Below are positions 3,091 through 29,086 of a stretch of DNA of 34,559 bases, piece by piece. The DNA is taken from the IMG/VR virus record IMGVR_UViG_3300028388_003675, positions 1-34,559 of that record. One strand, 5' to 3'. Made by a program: the position numbers and the translations under genes. The notes under the pieces are model-generated. The model was not told the origin of the DNA and did no database searches. It worked only from the letters and a program-made list of their open reading frames with translations. This DNA is from a virus. Position 1 is the stretch's first letter. Each line of letters opens with the position of its first letter.

Positions 3091-3552
3091 ATGTTTGTTA
3101 GATACGACAAAGAAGATTATAACGAACTTTTTGATGATGGTACACCTTTCCTACTTATGGTGTACTTTATGAAACAAGGAGAGTATGATAAAAAGACTGA
3201 AAGGTTTTATGATATGCTTGCGTTATATCCGTCCTATCATAAAAAATATGACAAATTAAAAGACTTTCACTTACCCAATCAATTGGTGACCTTTGAAGAA
3301 TTGTATCCTGATATAAAAATTGTTGAGGCTTATCATCACGAGGTTTACGATTTGGTTATGGAGTGTGGTATAGATTATAATACCCTATGGAAAGATTTTG
3401 ATAGGGTATTTCAACCTTTGATTTTTGCTTTTAAAAATAAAGAAGATTATAAACACTCATATTCAGAGTGTTACTGCGTTGAGACATTGACAGATTTGTC
3501 AATTTTTATCAGACCTGATTTATTTATACCATCCCGTATAGGTGAGTCGTAG
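3091..3552 (+). CDS. Hypothetical protein, 153 residues
   Basis: I do not recognise this protein. I start it at the ATG at 3091, one base after the oxygenase stop; the frame stays open upstream to 3058, but that would need an overlap into the oxygenase. It is mixed charged and aromatic (MFVRYDKEDYNELF at the N terminus) with no membrane segment or signal peptide. A run of close aromatic, His and Cys residues (YSECYC) lies in the C-terminal third. Its 3' end overlaps the convergent oxygenase gene by 33 bases. The position between two oxygenases suggests a role in the same modification, but this is only context. Confidence 0.65.
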   Translation: MFVRYDKEDYNELFDDGTPFLLMVYFMKQGEYDKKTERFYDMLALYPSYHKKYDKLKDFHLPNQLVTFEELYPDIKIVEAYHHEVYDLVMECGIDYNTLWKDFDRVFQPLIFAFKNKEDYKHSYSECYCVETLTDLSIFIRPDLFIPSRIGES

Positions 3553-4251
3553 TTCTTCAACACCAGGTGAAACCGTTGATACGTAATGCCACTTACCAAC
3601 ACCTTTAGGTAAATCAAATATAGTCAAAGTATTAAACTGAGGTACTTCGATTCTTTCAACATTACCGTCGGGACCATCCATAAAATGAAGGTTACCACCG
3701 AATTGTGGTTTCCAGTCTTTTGTCAGTTGTAAAACAAAACCCAAAGTCCCATTCGGTGAATCTTGGTGTGGTGATAAAAAGTCACCAGGAAGATACACTG
3801 CACCGAAGACTTCATCAGTATCGGTCAGACCTTGGTTAGTAATTCTGTTGAGAAAATCAAGTATTTCATCACTTACCAAACCTTCTCTAAAACCACATTC
3901 ATAACAATCACAACCGTCGACGTGGTCGTTAATAGTCCTATGAAAATTGTATGCGAATTTATTATCTTTGAAGTGACTGATGGCGTTAGTATACATAGAA
4001 CGAATGTCATCATTATACTCATCATTAAAAGGAATCAAATCAAAACCTTCTCCCCCGTCAATTTTAGGGTAAGATGATATTCTCCACCAATCTTTAGGCA
4101 TCTCCTCAGTAAACCACATGTGTAGTCTTTCTGCGACATTCGGATTTAAGAAATCTTTGATTACTACAACCCTATTATTTTCAAATTCTTTTCTCAAAGA
4201 ATTAATATCGTGTTTAGGGTTCAATAGTGATTGATTAAAAAAACTTTTCAT
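3520..4251 (-). CDS. Fe(II)/2-oxoglutarate-dependent oxygenase
   Basis: The 243-residue protein begins like many phage oxygenases (RVVVIKDFLNPNVAERLHMW) and has H162 and D164 in FLSPHQDSP, H222 in GKWHYVS and R235 in EELRLTYTGW, which complete the metal and 2-oxoglutarate site. FGGNLHFMD (184-192) is the usual strand before the distal His. A CDCYEC cluster (C114, C116, C119) in the middle could bind a second metal and is unusual. The fold resembles prolyl 4-hydroxylase/OGFOD-type proteins. It is followed after two bases by the next oxygenase on the same strand, so 4254-4832 and this gene form a leftward pair. It overlaps the rightward unknown gene by 33 bases at its 3' end. Confidence 0.85.
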   Translation of the reverse strand: MKSFFNQSLLNPKHDINSLRKEFENNRVVVIKDFLNPNVAERLHMWFTEEMPKDWWRISSYPKIDGGEGFDLIPFNDEYNDDIRSMYTNAISHFKDNKFAYNFHRTINDHVDGCDCYECGFREGLVSDEILDFLNRITNQGLTDTDEVFGAVYLPGDFLSPHQDSPNGTLGFVLQLTKDWKPQFGGNLHFMDGPDGNVERIEVPQFNTLTIFDLPKGVGKWHYVSTVSPGVEELRLTYTGWYK

Positions 4252-13920: not shown

Positions 13921-14328
13921 ATGAACAAATACGGAGGAGTAATTGTTAGATGTAACAATAAGGTTTTACTTTGTAAAAGAAATGCTGACAGTTCATTACC
14001 GGGTCATTGGTCGTGTCCTGCGGGAAGTATTGAAGAAGGTGAAGAACCATTAAGAGGTGCGATGAGAGAGTTTTATGAAGAAACTGACATTCAACTGTTG
14101 AAACAACCAGAGTTTTGTGGTATAATTAAACGAACAAATAGAGATGGTAGTAAAATTAAAGGTGAGATGTATTGTTTCCTTTATGATTGTGACGAAGAGA
14201 TTTACCCTGACTTAGACAAAGCTAAGGATGGTGATGAACATACAGAGTGTGGATACTTCGGTAAAGATGAGTTACCTTCTCCAATGACAGAACAATTTAA
14301 TAAATTACTAAATATTATACTAAAATGA
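13921..14328 (+). CDS. NUDIX hydrolase
   Basis: From the ATG at 13921 the protein is 135 residues. The NUDIX box reads GSIEEGEEPLRGAMREFYEE, followed by TDI: the G, the first E and the REFYEE core are in place, while the usual final Gly is Asp. The opening GGVIVRCNNKVLLCKRN and PGHWSCPAGS are typical of MutT-like enzymes. It would hydrolyse a nucleoside diphosphate linked to another group X, for example damaged dNTPs, NAD or capped RNA; the exact substrate is unknown. The frame is open further upstream, but that part overlaps the DUF192 gene. The stop overlaps the next start (ATGA). Confidence 0.9.
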   Translation: MNKYGGVIVRCNNKVLLCKRNADSSLPGHWSCPAGSIEEGEEPLRGAMREFYEETDIQLLKQPEFCGIIKRTNRDGSKIKGEMYCFLYDCDEEIYPDLDKAKDGDEHTECGYFGKDELPSPMTEQFNKLLNIILK

Positions 14329-14540
14329 GTTTAATGTACAAAGCCCTCGTAGCGAAATACGAAGCAGAACTGTTGGAAGCAAAAGCAACATTGGAAGTTT
14401 ACTTTAATAATTCCGTTGGAATTGGTGAACACCCTCAACACTTGGAAGAGATGAATGGGTTGGTTGATAAGATGGCTTCAGCGAGTGATAAATTAGAAGC
14501 ACTTAAATCTAACTTTGATGAAAAGGGTATGGCCCGTTGA
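14325..14540 (+). CDS. Small coiled-coil protein, 71 residues
   Basis: The protein begins with a long helix (KALVAKYEAELLEAKATLEVY), continues with a short loop (NNSVGIGEHPQHLEE) and ends with a second helix (MASASDKLEALKSNF), so a helical hairpin is likely. It is translationally coupled to the NUDIX gene by ATGA. A second ATG three codons in is an alternative start. The family is not recognised. It is the last gene before the large non-coding RNA region. Confidence 0.65.
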   Translation: MSLMYKALVAKYEAELLEAKATLEVYFNNSVGIGEHPQHLEEMNGLVDKMASASDKLEALKSNFDEKGMAR

Positions 14541-14608
14541 TGGTCCAAAAGACAGATATAGTGGATACTTTAAGTTATCCTACAACCCAATGTCCTTACT
14601 TTTTGTTT

Positions 14609-14616
14609 TAATTTTG
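14609..14616 (+). promoter_or_regulatory. Possible host-type -7 box for the large RNA
   Basis: TAATTTTG fits the Bacteroidota TAnnTTTG box. No TTG element is seen at the expected 17-23 base distance, so this is weak. If used, RNA would begin near 14622, just before the first paired element of the structured region. Confidence 0.3.
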
Positions 14617-14619
14617 TCA

Positions 14620-15521
14620 GAGTTCTTTGAAATATTGGTCGTGTTTATATGTCGACTTTGAATTACATCTTCGGGTGTAATCCTTTCCAAAAGGAGATTA
14701 TAAACAGACACGGCGGTTTAGCGTCGATAGATAACCCCAGCAATGGGACTATAGGGATTGAAACGGGATTAGTACACCGTGAATATTCGCAATCGTGAGG
14801 TTGACAACTAAACAAAGTGGCTACGGCCAATTCCCCGAGGGCAACTGCTGGGGGGAAGAGGTCACTCTGAGTCCGTGGAATATCAGAGTTGAGATGGTGA
14901 CATCAAAAGGAAAAGCTACAGGTGACGGTTCGACACACCCTGCAAGGTGTCGTAGGGCTGGGTACCAGTCTGACGGGTTTCCGAGGTGAGTAAACCAACG
15001 AAGTCCTGACTGACCGTAAGTTTGCAGACTTACAGAGAGGTGTGAAGCATTCTGTTCTCCAAAGGGACGGACCTTCTCCCGAAGCACATCTTTCCTTCTT
15101 CCACAATTGCTAGTTTAATAACAATCCCGTAATCAGGGTAATACAATTAAATGAAAAGCAAGAGTCTTCGGGCGTTGATAACGAAAGGTGTCTAATACTC
15201 TGAGTGTAAACTAACAGAGTCATTGATAAGACCGCAAGTCTTTCGATGTCAATAACAAAAGACCTGTTGGGACGGCCATCCCTTCATGAACTCGCAAGGT
15301 TCAACAGAGTTAAGTAGTTGTTGAGTAGTTATTGACGAATACGATTGGTTAACGTAAGTAACCGACACTGACTTGATACGATGGGCAACTATCGTGGACA
15401 ATGTGAGCAACCGACTATTAGGGTAATCTCACGAAAGACAGGTCACATAAACGTGTAGTCTCAGCGTTCTATACCTCATATACCTTCCTTGACCTCGGTG
15501 TTAACCCACCGAGGTTTTTTT
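14620..15521 (+). ncRNA. Giant structured non-coding RNA (GOLLD/ROOL-like candidate)
   Basis: The 1,042 bases between the genes at 14540 and 15583 lack a credible gene but hold many exact hairpins. Examples: GTTTATA 14643-14649 with 14699-14705; an 8-pair stem with a UUCG loop at 14662-14681; CCCA-GCAA-TGGG at 14736-14747; CTCTGA with TCAGAG (14865-14888) nested in GTCAC with GTGAC (14861-14901); GTAAGT with ACTTAC (15016-15033); AAGAC-CGCAA-GTCTT at 15228-15242; TGAAC with GTTCA around TCGCAAG (15287-15303); and GGTTA with TAACC around a GTAA loop (15347-15363). A strong terminator closes it at 15492-15521. The size, dense GNRA and UUCG loops and phage setting recall GOLLD (about 800-900 nt) or ROOL RNAs, which occur in phages and self-assemble into cages. 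I found no RNase P, tmRNA, rRNA, group I or group II signature. The RNA is well supported; the family name is a guess. Confidence 0.8.
15492..15521 (+). terminator. Strong intrinsic terminator of the large RNA
   Basis: ACCTCGGTG (15492-15500) pairs perfectly with CACCGAGGT (15507-15515), followed by seven T. It sets the 3' end of the RNA and insulates the next promoter only 11 bases downstream. Confidence 0.93.
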
Positions 15522-15531
15522 ATGCCAATAG

Positions 15532-15562
15532 TTGTCGGTATCAAATATATTTCTTATCTTTG
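15532..15562 (+). promoter_or_regulatory. Consensus Bacteroidota promoter (TTG-N20-TATCTTTG)
   Basis: The -33 element TTG is at 15532-15534 and the -7 box TATCTTTG at 15555-15562, with a 20-base spacer. This is the form used by the primary sigma factor of Bacteroidota. Transcription would start near 15568, 15 bases before the ATG at 15583, and drive the four-gene operon that ends at 16977. Confidence 0.85.
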
Positions 15563-15582
15563 TATAACAAATAAAGAGAACT

Positions 15583-15858
15583 ATGGTATTAGAAAGAAAC
15601 ATCAAAATCATCCACCCACAATTCGGAAACCTTCTTAATGACAACTACGCTGACGAAGTTCAGTTTAAGTTATTCTTGCAGATGGTTCATTCATGTGTAG
15701 AGTTGAAGCAGGACTTATCGTTCTTCAATGGTCGTGATTTCTTGGTTCACATTCCTTATGAGTTACTTCGTCAATCCATCATTTTGGGTAATGCGAAACC
15801 TCAAGAGGAGTTGACGTTGGGTGAGTATGCTATCCGTAAATCTAAAATGGAGGAATAA
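15583..15858 (+). CDS. Hypothetical protein, 91 residues
   Basis: First gene of the host-promoter operon. The protein is soluble, with the N terminus MVLERNIKIIHPQFGNLLND and a helical middle (VQFKLFLQMVHSCVELKQ); the segment RDFLVHIPYELLRQSII suggests a compact alpha/beta fold. I recognise no family. Its stop overlaps the start of the HAD gene (TAATG), with GGAGG just before that start. Confidence 0.65.
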   Translation: MVLERNIKIIHPQFGNLLNDNYADEVQFKLFLQMVHSCVELKQDLSFFNGRDFLVHIPYELLRQSIILGNAKPQEELTLGEYAIRKSKMEE

Positions 15859-16286: not shown

Positions 16287-16480
16287 TGTATAAGGTTGGT
16301 GACATGGTGGTGATACCTGAAACGAAAGAAATCAAAGAAATTCAGGAGATAGAAAGGTTTGAGAACGATGTTGTTATTTACACTACCGATGGAAATGCTT
16401 ATGGTATTAGGGAATGTAATACGGTACACCAAGCGTACTCTGATGAAATAAATAACTTATTGAAGAAATGGAAGGTATAA
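16286..16480 (+). CDS. Small hypothetical protein, 64 residues
   Basis: The protein starts MYKVGDMVVIPETKEI and alternates hydrophobic and charged residues (VVIYTTDGNAYGI), as in a small SH3- or KOW-like beta barrel, with a C-terminal helix (YSDEINNLLKKW). The barrel reading is only a pattern impression. It begins with a TAATG overlap and ends 13 bases inside the glutathione peroxidase gene, so it is part of the same operon. Confidence 0.65.
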   Translation: MYKVGDMVVIPETKEIKEIQEIERFENDVVIYTTDGNAYGIRECNTVHQAYSDEINNLLKKWKV

Positions 16481-16977
16481 CTAACTTTTACGATAAAATC
16501 CTTATCACTCAAAATGATGGGTTTGTTAACCCTGAAACATTGAATACGAGACATATAGTCATTAATGTTGCTTCTGAGTGTGGGTATACCGATACTAACT
16601 ATAAAGACCTCAAACAATTCTTAGAAACTGTTGATAAGGATAAAGTAACGGTGTGGTTGTATCCATCAAATGACTTCGGAGGACAGGAACCTGGGACAAT
16701 GGAAGAAATCAAAACCTTCTGTGATAGTTATGGTGTATTGGACCACTCAAATGTATATTTGATGCCAAAGACGGAACTTAAACTGTCTGAGATGTGGCAT
16801 TGGTTACAATATACCAATGAGGGTTCAACACAATATGGTTTTGATTTTGAAGCCAAATGGAACTTCTTCAAATATTTAATTGATAGTGATGGTAACACAT
16901 GGGGACTGTCATACTCTGAGGAGAGTCTTTTGGATGAAGAAGTTATGGAGTGGATTAATTCACCCATTGAGGAATAG
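16468..16977 (+). CDS. Glutathione peroxidase-like thiol peroxidase
   Basis: The 169-residue protein follows the glutathione peroxidase order closely: NVASECGYT with peroxidatic C38, YPSNDFGGQEPGT with Q73, and FEAKWNFFKYLI with W131 and N132, which together form the catalytic tetrad. C85 in the helix after the FGGQEPG motif (EEIKTFC) is a possible resolving Cys, so the enzyme may use thioredoxin, as most bacterial forms do. It would reduce hydrogen or lipid peroxides in the infected cell. Length and motifs look intact. Phage-encoded copies are uncommon. It is the last gene of the host-promoter operon and is followed by a terminator at 17041. Confidence 0.88.
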   Translation: MEGITNFYDKILITQNDGFVNPETLNTRHIVINVASECGYTDTNYKDLKQFLETVDKDKVTVWLYPSNDFGGQEPGTMEEIKTFCDSYGVLDHSNVYLMPKTELKLSEMWHWLQYTNEGSTQYGFDFEAKWNFFKYLIDSDGNTWGLSYSEESLLDEEVMEWINSPIEE

Positions 16978-27031: not shown

Positions 27032-29086
27032 ATGAAAAAACTTTTTACCTTAATTGCCTTTATCTTTTCCCTAACGATGTTGGGGTCACACCTATCGGGT
27101 GGAGATATACAATACCGTTATATCGGTGATTCTACGAACGTTGCACGTCAATATGAGGTGTTACTCCGCATCTACCGAGATAACTCAGGAATACCAATGG
27201 GAAACACTCAGACGGTATATATTAATTCGTCTTGTTATTCTCAACAGAGTATGACGGTAACATTGTTACCAGGTTCAGGAGGTATTGCACCAACCTTATT
27301 TGATTGTGTGGTTCCATCCACAACAACAAAGACCTTAGAGATTTATGCGTATAAGGGTGTGGTTACGTTACCTGGTAACTGTAGTAATTTTAACTTCTCG
27401 TGGAATCAATGTTGTCGTCCAGGTGGTATAGATAACATTAATACTTCCAATGGTTTCGGTTCTGATGGTTTTTATTTCGATGCGTTATTGGATAATACTA
27501 ACGGTCAGAACTCATCACCTATCTTTATCTCAGAACCTGTAAGAGCCTTCTGTGTAAACAATCCGTTCAATTGGAAACAAACAGTATTGGAGACCGATGG
27601 TGATTCCATCATCTTCTCAATGATTAAATGTAGAGAGAATGCATATCCTGGTACGGATATTAACTTTGACGCAGGGTGGACGGCGTCACAACCAATTACT
27701 TCATCATATTTCAATCTAAATCCATCGACAGGACTTATAAGTTTCTTGCCGACAATGCAAGAGATTGATGTGGCGTCAGTGTTGGTGGAGGAATATAGAT
27801 ATGATTCTTTGTATGGTGTATGGAATAAGATTGGTTCGGCATCGAGAGATATGATGATTCAAATTGAAGCGAACTGTGCACCTGCGGTTATGGATGGTGT
27901 TGGATTGGACTTCGATGCGCCAGGTCATTACATCGATACTATCACAGGATTACCGACTGTGGATTATGAGTGTGGTGATACTGCTGTGACCATCTACTTA
28001 GACATCTTCTTAGATTGTTATTCTATCTCACCTGATGGTACAGATTTCAGAATGACATCACCAACGGGTCAGCCATGGGCAATTAAGAATGTGATTGGTA
28101 ACTGTAATCCAAATGGTGAAACAGATTCATTAACCATTGTATTGAACAGACCATTGGCGGTGAATGGAAAATATTATCTATACTCAAAGGTGGGTAATGA
28201 TGGTAATACCATTCTAAACAAATGTGGTATTGCGATGGATGAGTTTGATACTCTCGTTATCAATGTAGAAGATTGTGTTAATTTAGTAATGGAATTAGAA
28301 AACGTTACGGTTGTAAATGGTAATCATCCACAGGTTCAATGGTCCGTAGACACTACAACATTCTTCAAAGACCAATTTGAAAGATATGTAATTCTACGTG
28401 AAGATATGGGTTGGGGTTCAGTAGGTAACGTATTAAATCCTGATAAGTTATTCTATGATGATTACTCGGCGAATGATGTAAACGGTCAGAGTTACAACTA
28501 TAAAGTCTATATGGTTTACAACTCATTCAATATGGATACTACGAGAGATGTTCACTCTATACTGTTACAAACGAACGGTAAATGTGATACATTATGTTTC
28601 AATTGGAACAGTTATAATGGTTGGGACTCAGCGGTCTATGACATCTATGTTGACAACGGATTGAATTGGTTGAAACTAAATCCAACACCAATAGCAGATA
28701 CCGTTTACTGTGGTAATTTTGATACTTTACCTGTTGGGTTTAATATATTCAAAGTGGTAACAACAAACGGAATTGACACGTCAGAAAGTAATTACGCAAT
28801 CTGTAATCAACCTGAACCACCTGTGGTTACTGTTCCAAATGTAATCACACCAAACGATGATGGGTGGAACGATATCTTTATGATTGACTATCTAAATCAA
28901 TACGACATCAGAAAGTTGACAATCTTCAACAGATGGGGTACAATTGTATATCAGAGTGATGATTACCAAAACAATTGGGATGGTGGTAATGTTGCTGATG
29001 GTGTATACTTCTATGTGTTAGAACTATGGAAGGGTAATGTTGATACGTATTATTATGGAACTTTAACTGTAATGGATAATGATTAA
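27032..29086 (+). CDS. Secreted T9SS cargo protein with type B sorting domain
   Basis: The 684-residue protein has a signal peptide (KKLFTLIAFIFSLTMLGSH) and then beta-rich Ig-like repeats. The N-terminal domain (SGGDIQYRYIGDS, EVLLRIYRD) resembles the start of large Bacteroidota gliding- and adhesin-type surface proteins. Several Cys (CYSQQ, NQCCRPGG, DCYSIS) could form disulfides after export. The last 85 or so residues match the gliding-motility-associated C-terminal domain (T9SS type B): VPNVITPNDDGWNDIF, LTIFNRWGTIVYQ, NNWDGG and DGVYFYVLEL. The host type IX system should therefore move it through the outer membrane and leave it on the surface or outside. In a phage this suggests receptor masking, exclusion of other phages, adhesion or a change in gliding. 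The 3' end overlaps the lipoprotein gene by 8 bases. Confidence 0.88.
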   Translation: MKKLFTLIAFIFSLTMLGSHLSGGDIQYRYIGDSTNVARQYEVLLRIYRDNSGIPMGNTQTVYINSSCYSQQSMTVTLLPGSGGIAPTLFDCVVPSTTTKTLEIYAYKGVVTLPGNCSNFNFSWNQCCRPGGIDNINTSNGFGSDGFYFDALLDNTNGQNSSPIFISEPVRAFCVNNPFNWKQTVLETDGDSIIFSMIKCRENAYPGTDINFDAGWTASQPITSSYFNLNPSTGLISFLPTMQEIDVASVLVEEYRYDSLYGVWNKIGSASRDMMIQIEANCAPAVMDGVGLDFDAPGHYIDTITGLPTVDYECGDTAVTIYLDIFLDCYSISPDGTDFRMTSPTGQPWAIKNVIGNCNPNGETDSLTIVLNRPLAVNGKYYLYSKVGNDGNTILNKCGIAMDEFDTLVINVEDCVNLVMELENVTVVNGNHPQVQWSVDTTTFFKDQFERYVILREDMGWGSVGNVLNPDKLFYDDYSANDVNGQSYNYKVYMVYNSFNMDTTRDVHSILLQTNGKCDTLCFNWNSYNGWDSAVYDIYVDNGLNWLKLNPTPIADTVYCGNFDTLPVGFNIFKVVTTNGIDTSESNYAICNQPEPPVVTVPNVITPNDDGWNDIFMIDYLNQYDIRKLTIFNRWGTIVYQSDDYQNNWDGGNVADGVYFYVLELWKGNVDTYYYGTLTVMDND

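Follow-up and report, generated by a model that had tools for sequence, protein, structure and literature searches.

The window analyzed here, the whole 34,559-nucleotide stretch of the IMG/VR virus record IMGVR_UViG_3300028388_003675, carries a 1,042-base interval between two open reading frames (ORFs; 14325–14540 and 15583–15858) that contains no credible gene. tRNAs were sought in this gap (14541–15582) and in the whole window, and none was found. The original prediction, made from the letters of the DNA, placed about 900 gene-free bases of structured RNA at 14609–15521. The interval is indeed gene-free, and these limits were nearly exact: 14609 is the first base of a promoter −7 box and 15521 lies within the T run of a terminator. 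The gene stands alone, consisting of a Bacteroidota-type promoter box, the RNA, and an intrinsic terminator, with no tRNAs.

All features of the gene lie on the + strand. The −7 box TAATTTTG (14609–14616) is of the Bacteroidota type TAnnTTTG, and a boxA-like antitermination element AGAGTTCTTTGAAATATT (14619–14636) follows where the RNA is predicted to start. Comparison of leaders delimited a variable 5′ stem region (14640–14710), whose sequence is very different among relatives and whose end-to-end complementarity was seen by eye. In the window, it has an outer stem (GTTTATA, 14643–14649/TATAAAC, 14699–14705) and an internal UUCG hairpin (14662–14681; UUCG loop, 14670–14673). The GOLLD 5′ domain core (14711–15033), a cap domain by homology, and the GOLLD 3′ domain (15035–15467) follow. 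The gene ends with the terminator GACCTCGGTG...CACCGAGGTT plus a T run (15491–15521), whose 10-bp stem (15491–15500/15507–15516) has compensatory changes at five pairs among the homologues; the strong terminator that had been proposed is thus present.

To identify the RNA, 14541–15582 was searched with Rfam covariance models up to an E value of 10, as the original prediction had suggested for GOLLD, ROOL, OLE, HEARO, and introns. The Rfam GOLLD model (RF02032) matched 15035–15467 (+) with 297.8 bits (E = 1.9e-84) over model positions 1–416 of 416, about twice the gathering score of 150 bits. GOLLD was the sole significant family; ROOL, OLE, HEARO, and introns gave no significant match, and besides GOLLD there were merely three sub-threshold chance matches. 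The structured RNA is a real, full-length GOLLD RNA. Of the earlier proposal of a GOLLD or ROOL RNA, the GOLLD half therefore stands and the ROOL half falls, and the statement that the RNA matched no known family, made without a database, was wrong. The reading that it is a new class (the fallback offered in case neither family matched), ROOL, OLE, or an intron could draw on the fact that RF02032 spans the 3′ domain alone and that the 5′ half by itself matches no Rfam family. It is refuted by the GOLLD match, which is full-length and scores twice the cut-off, the lack of any other significant family, and the homology, described below, between the 5′ half and that of other GOLLDs, and we assign it a negligible probability. 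ROOL is similar in being phage-linked, giant, and cage-forming (PMC12286853), and differs in its sequence and fold.

A 2025 survey gathered 806 GOLLD sequences (PMC12286853). To find relatives of the window copy, we used the 91-residue protein encoded immediately downstream (15583–15855), which led to 13 close viral contigs, all 13 of which had GOLLD in the same place. A GOLLD-specific DNA pattern found 76 IMG/VR stretches, on contigs of up to 297 kb. Removal of near duplicates reduced 44 full-length Bacteroidota-type sequences to 29 representatives, and the 28 others were 58–94% identical to the window. Most loci encode a small protein (phrog_1811) upstream, and many encode the 91-residue protein downstream; given these recurring neighbours, the RNA appears to be inherited with the locus. 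Outside these viral records, an exact-pattern scan of 84,980 cellular genomes found no GOLLD, a weak negative for a clade-specific pattern, and a search of Bacteroidota genomes found none in 99, also a weak negative as it had no positive control. The GOLLD consensus had no match in plasmids, and the 91-residue protein had no relative in named phages.

The presence of the tail-fibre, minor coat, lysozyme, and thymidylate synthase matches in the window and of the pattern in 76 viral stretches indicates the phage or prophage origin expected of a GOLLD RNA. Additionally, the window encodes a 684-residue protein (27032–29086) that has a CHU_C type IX secretion signal domain at its C terminus. Together with the promoter type and the boxA type, this domain points to Bacteroidota as the probable host, so that the earlier attribution to a Bacteroidota phage is supported. 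The window also has auxiliary genes for a family 17 glycosyltransferase (935–2416), a 2OG-Fe(II) oxygenase (3520–4251), and a glutathione-peroxidase-like protein (16468–16977).

We then evaluated the folding of the RNA. Its predicted free energy was −276.3 kcal/mol compared with −250.1 kcal/mol (standard deviation, 6.8) for dinucleotide shuffles (z = −3.9), and none of 20 shuffles was as stable. The stems, tetraloops, and long-range pairing originally described could be located as the UUCG loop given above, CGCAA-type loops, and a 10-bp long-range stem (15173–15182/15328–15337). The homologue and covariation search that had been called for yielded a consensus fold of the 29 homologues with 226 pairs in about 40 helices, 103 pairs of which had at least one compensatory change. 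Because the Rfam model covers the 3′ domain alone, the 5′ domain (14700–15034) was tested separately. Across the 29 loci, 97.7% of its cells were paired and 44 of 95 pairs were compensated, compared with maxima of 32 in 200 row shuffles and 17 when partners were slid by 1–3 columns. The 3′ domain had 54 of 115 pairs compensated, the corresponding maxima being 38 and 15. In a separate pair count of 14816–14967, 99.4% of cells were paired and 19 pairs had changed on both sides (shuffled mean, 10.3, with 0 of 500 shuffles reaching 19; slid partners, at most 8). In these comparisons, the consensus structure is favoured over slid versions because it was derived from the same 29 sequences, and row shuffles ignore the relatedness among sequences. 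Both domains have covarying structure beyond the shuffled and slid controls.

A covariance model built from 14816–14967 found the 5′ domain in seven divergent GOLLDs (L024, L030, L040, L022, L017, L026, and L021; E = 1e-10 to 1e-7) and, more weakly, in the GOLLD of a 635-kb phage genome (L213; E = 9e-5), and found no match in the GOLLDs of mycobacteriophage, Acinetobacter phage, and DSS3_MAL1 origin. This homologous segment and the covariation agree with the less conserved yet structured 5′ domain of GOLLD RNAs. As separate observations, two loci (L058 and L072) have no variable 5′ stem and an altered L21b loop and could form different assemblies. The Acinetobacter phage GOLLD (L212, 1275–1643) has no hairpin P21a, the carrier of bridge B8, and could also assemble differently.

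The TAnnTTTG box was found ahead of the RNA in all 29 representatives by alignment, and a −33 box (TTTG/TTGA) lay 19–21 nt away from it in 24 of them. The window copy has no −33 box, and fewer bases separate it from the gene before it than in most relatives. Its transcription may depend on read-through; alternatively, this copy may represent a recombinant or assembly variant. These two features also favour the reading that the window GOLLD is a decaying or silent copy that has lost the upstream half of its promoter and is no longer made in quantity. Both domains, the boxA, the −7 box, and the terminator are intact, however, its Rfam score equals that of the relatives, and read-through from the upstream gene on the same strand is possible; we consider decay quite unlikely.

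In the alignment of close relatives, AGTTCTTTGAAATA immediately after the promoter box was invariant, while its flanks varied. To compare this element with rRNA leaders, Bacteroidota 16S rRNA genes were fetched by a pattern without any boxA component. Promoter-related ones aside, AGTTCTTTGA and GTTCTTTGAA were the commonest 10-mers in the 16S rRNA leaders. An 18-base motif was refined on the 16S leaders alone, starting from the enriched 8-mer GTTCTTTG as the seed; the phage sequence was not used to build the motif, though it had suggested the seed. The refined consensus, aAAGTTCtTTGAaAtatT, fits 98 of 112 16S leaders. When both strands of the whole window were scanned with this motif, the best site was 14619–14636 (+) with 22.3 bits, and the next best had 11.9 bits. 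This segment is, by its sequence, a near-perfect boxA match and the same type of element as in Bacteroidota rRNA leaders, where the boxA role is itself deduced from enrichment. As in those leaders, the promoter is of the TAnnTTTG type, the boxA consensus is the same, and a hairpin sometimes lies just before boxA; the difference is that the downstream RNA is rRNA there and a phage GOLLD here.

Among 47 non-redundant GOLLD loci, 34 of the 41 Bacteroidota-type leaders scored more than 14 bits. Outside GOLLD leaders, 13 sites in 439 kb (both strands) exceeded 14 bits and none exceeded 18.3 bits. The exact 16-mer occurred once each in records of 297, 113, 34.6, and 32.7 kb, shortly upstream of the GOLLD match. 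In eight whole Bacteroidota genomes, a near match occurred 0–5 times per genome; such rarity in host genomes indicates that the element is not a common feature of start sites. The boxA was kept in many loci although a 20-nt insert or a hairpin parts it from the promoter. One subclade had a degenerate boxA alone (GTTCTTACA), and the motif was not found in the more divergent GOLLDs, some of which have a TAnnTTTG box. A boxB-like hairpin before boxA was rejected as a general rule, since 13 of 29 GOLLD leaders have one and the share in rRNA leaders is 18%, compared with 6% in shuffles; such a hairpin is occasional and weakly enriched in rRNA leaders.

In rRNA operons, boxA in the nascent RNA helps to load NusB-S10 and other Nus factors on RNA polymerase (PMC7819879), and a boxA preceding a CRISPR array increased transcription of the array about ten-fold (PMC7862264). 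By analogy, we consider it likely that a clade of large Bacteroidota phages expresses GOLLD through host rRNA antitermination, copying the layout of the rRNA leader. Another reading accepts the GOLLD and takes the 5′ GTTCTTTGAAATATT as a structural or protein-binding part of the RNA or a start preference instead of an antitermination signal. The element is transcribed in all cases and invariant in close relatives, and the GOLLDs of other phages do without a boxA element, both of which would suit such a role. On the other hand, the consensus fold gives boxA a mere spurious 3-bp pairing, the element matches the motif of rRNA leaders in the host phylum, lies at varying distances from the promoter, and seldom occurs at other places in these phages or in host genomes. 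We regard this reading as improbable, though less so than decay of the window copy.

Under rRNA-type antitermination, host RNA polymerase would start at the Bacteroidota-type promoter, and the first nucleotides of the RNA would form boxA and recruit NusB-S10 (NusE) along with further Nus factors. Transcription would then continue through about 900 bases of untranslated, heavily structured RNA, escaping premature or Rho-dependent termination, until the intrinsic terminator stops the polymerase. The RNA folds into the 5′ and 3′ domains joined by a variable linker, as the Rfam match and the covariation show, and would probably assemble via kissing loops into a hollow homo-oligomeric cage like that of its marine homologue env-38. 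The transcription start, antitermination, caging, and abundance during infection are predicted. Taken as a whole, a complete stand-alone GOLLD gene that is host-promoted, boxA-antiterminated, and cage-forming in a large phage of probable Bacteroidota is a highly likely explanation of the locus.

Few natural RNAs have been shown to assemble a closed cage, and GOLLD is one of them. The solved cage, that of env-38 from a marine metagenome, is a 14-mer whose half-shells are each capped by the 5′ domain and whose ring is built from the 3′ domain; the variable linker is enclosed within it, and bridge B8 arises where two copies of L21a kiss via a self-complementary core (PMC12286853). We assigned L21a and L21b by their position on the Rfam alignment, which covered bridges B8 and B9. 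In the window, hairpin P21a (GGGA-CGGCCA-TCCC, 15269–15282) has a loop with a self-complementary GGCC at the position of the B8 self-kissing loop. The L21a loop had a self-complementary GC core in all 29 representatives, mostly GGCC, and the L21b loop CGCAA was kept in 27 of 29. In two huge phages, the L21a core is UCGA. The variable linker (15095–15155; 33–64 nt in relatives) would lie in the interior of the cage by homology (PMC12286853). These loop and linker features fit caging and do not prove it, and the window RNA probably forms a hollow homo-oligomeric cage through kissing loops. Pairing of the L20 loop with linker UUGC, a candidate for bridge B7, was plausible in the window and broken in two relatives (L061 and L041), and was rejected.

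tRNAs are common, not required, neighbours of GOLLD. The window and 26 loci, either related or divergent, yielded no tRNA, and tRNA as the linker cargo in the window's clade was rejected. The lack of tRNAs within or next to the gene in this clade speaks against an obligatory role of phage tRNA as cargo. The leading, though tentative, idea of the role of the cage is that it might be an abundant infection-stage container or sink for the linker or for a host translation component. GOLLD was reported to bind ribosomes in pull-downs (PMC12286853), and NusE is ribosomal protein S10; a link between GOLLD and translation on these grounds is speculation.

Like the GOLLDs in RF02032, including env-38, the window RNA has a full 3′ domain, a two-domain layout, a variable linker, a phage origin, a self-complementary L21a loop, and a length of more than 800 nt. 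It differs from them in that the gene has a promoter of its own with an rRNA-type boxA, a terminator of its own, and no tRNA within or next to it, the 5′ domain lies outside the Rfam model, and its clade is one of probable Bacteroidota phages. The RNA itself belongs to the known GOLLD kind, and the novel part is the boxA leader; a literature search, largely without subscription papers, found no report of a boxA at a GOLLD gene or of GOLLD in Bacteroidota phages. The window's clade represents a clean version of GOLLD (one gene, no tRNAs, its own terminator, and usually its own promoter) and offers 29 representative homologues for covariation as well as a well-supported 5′ domain absent from Rfam. 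The boxA leader, if functional, would explain how a 900-base untranslated RNA is produced in quantity during infection, and it offers a testable way into the timing of, and the reason for, cage production. If so, a cage RNA would be tied to NusB-S10 and the ribosome-production machinery.

Three further observations concern other loci. Vibrio phage ICP1 (NC_015157, 80097–81107) makes an abundant non-coding RNA of about 800 bases to 1 kb, and a paper likened its size to GOLLD/ROOL; it was considered as kin and rejected, having no GOLLD match. Its sub-threshold isrJ match was the only one, and it may be another giant RNA. An 83-base tmRNA-like gene lies upstream of divergent GOLLDs (L017, 5274–5356; L026, 7716–7798, − strand; L022, 1188–1270); it is not called by ARAGORN and has both ends of the tmRNA model with no room for a tag region. 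In the 635-kb phage (L213; LR745206.1), a hairpin and boxA precede GOLLD, and a second promoter, hairpin, and boxA lie ahead of a tRNA (boxA at 440–457 and 999–1016). Huge phages may use boxA for stable RNAs more generally.
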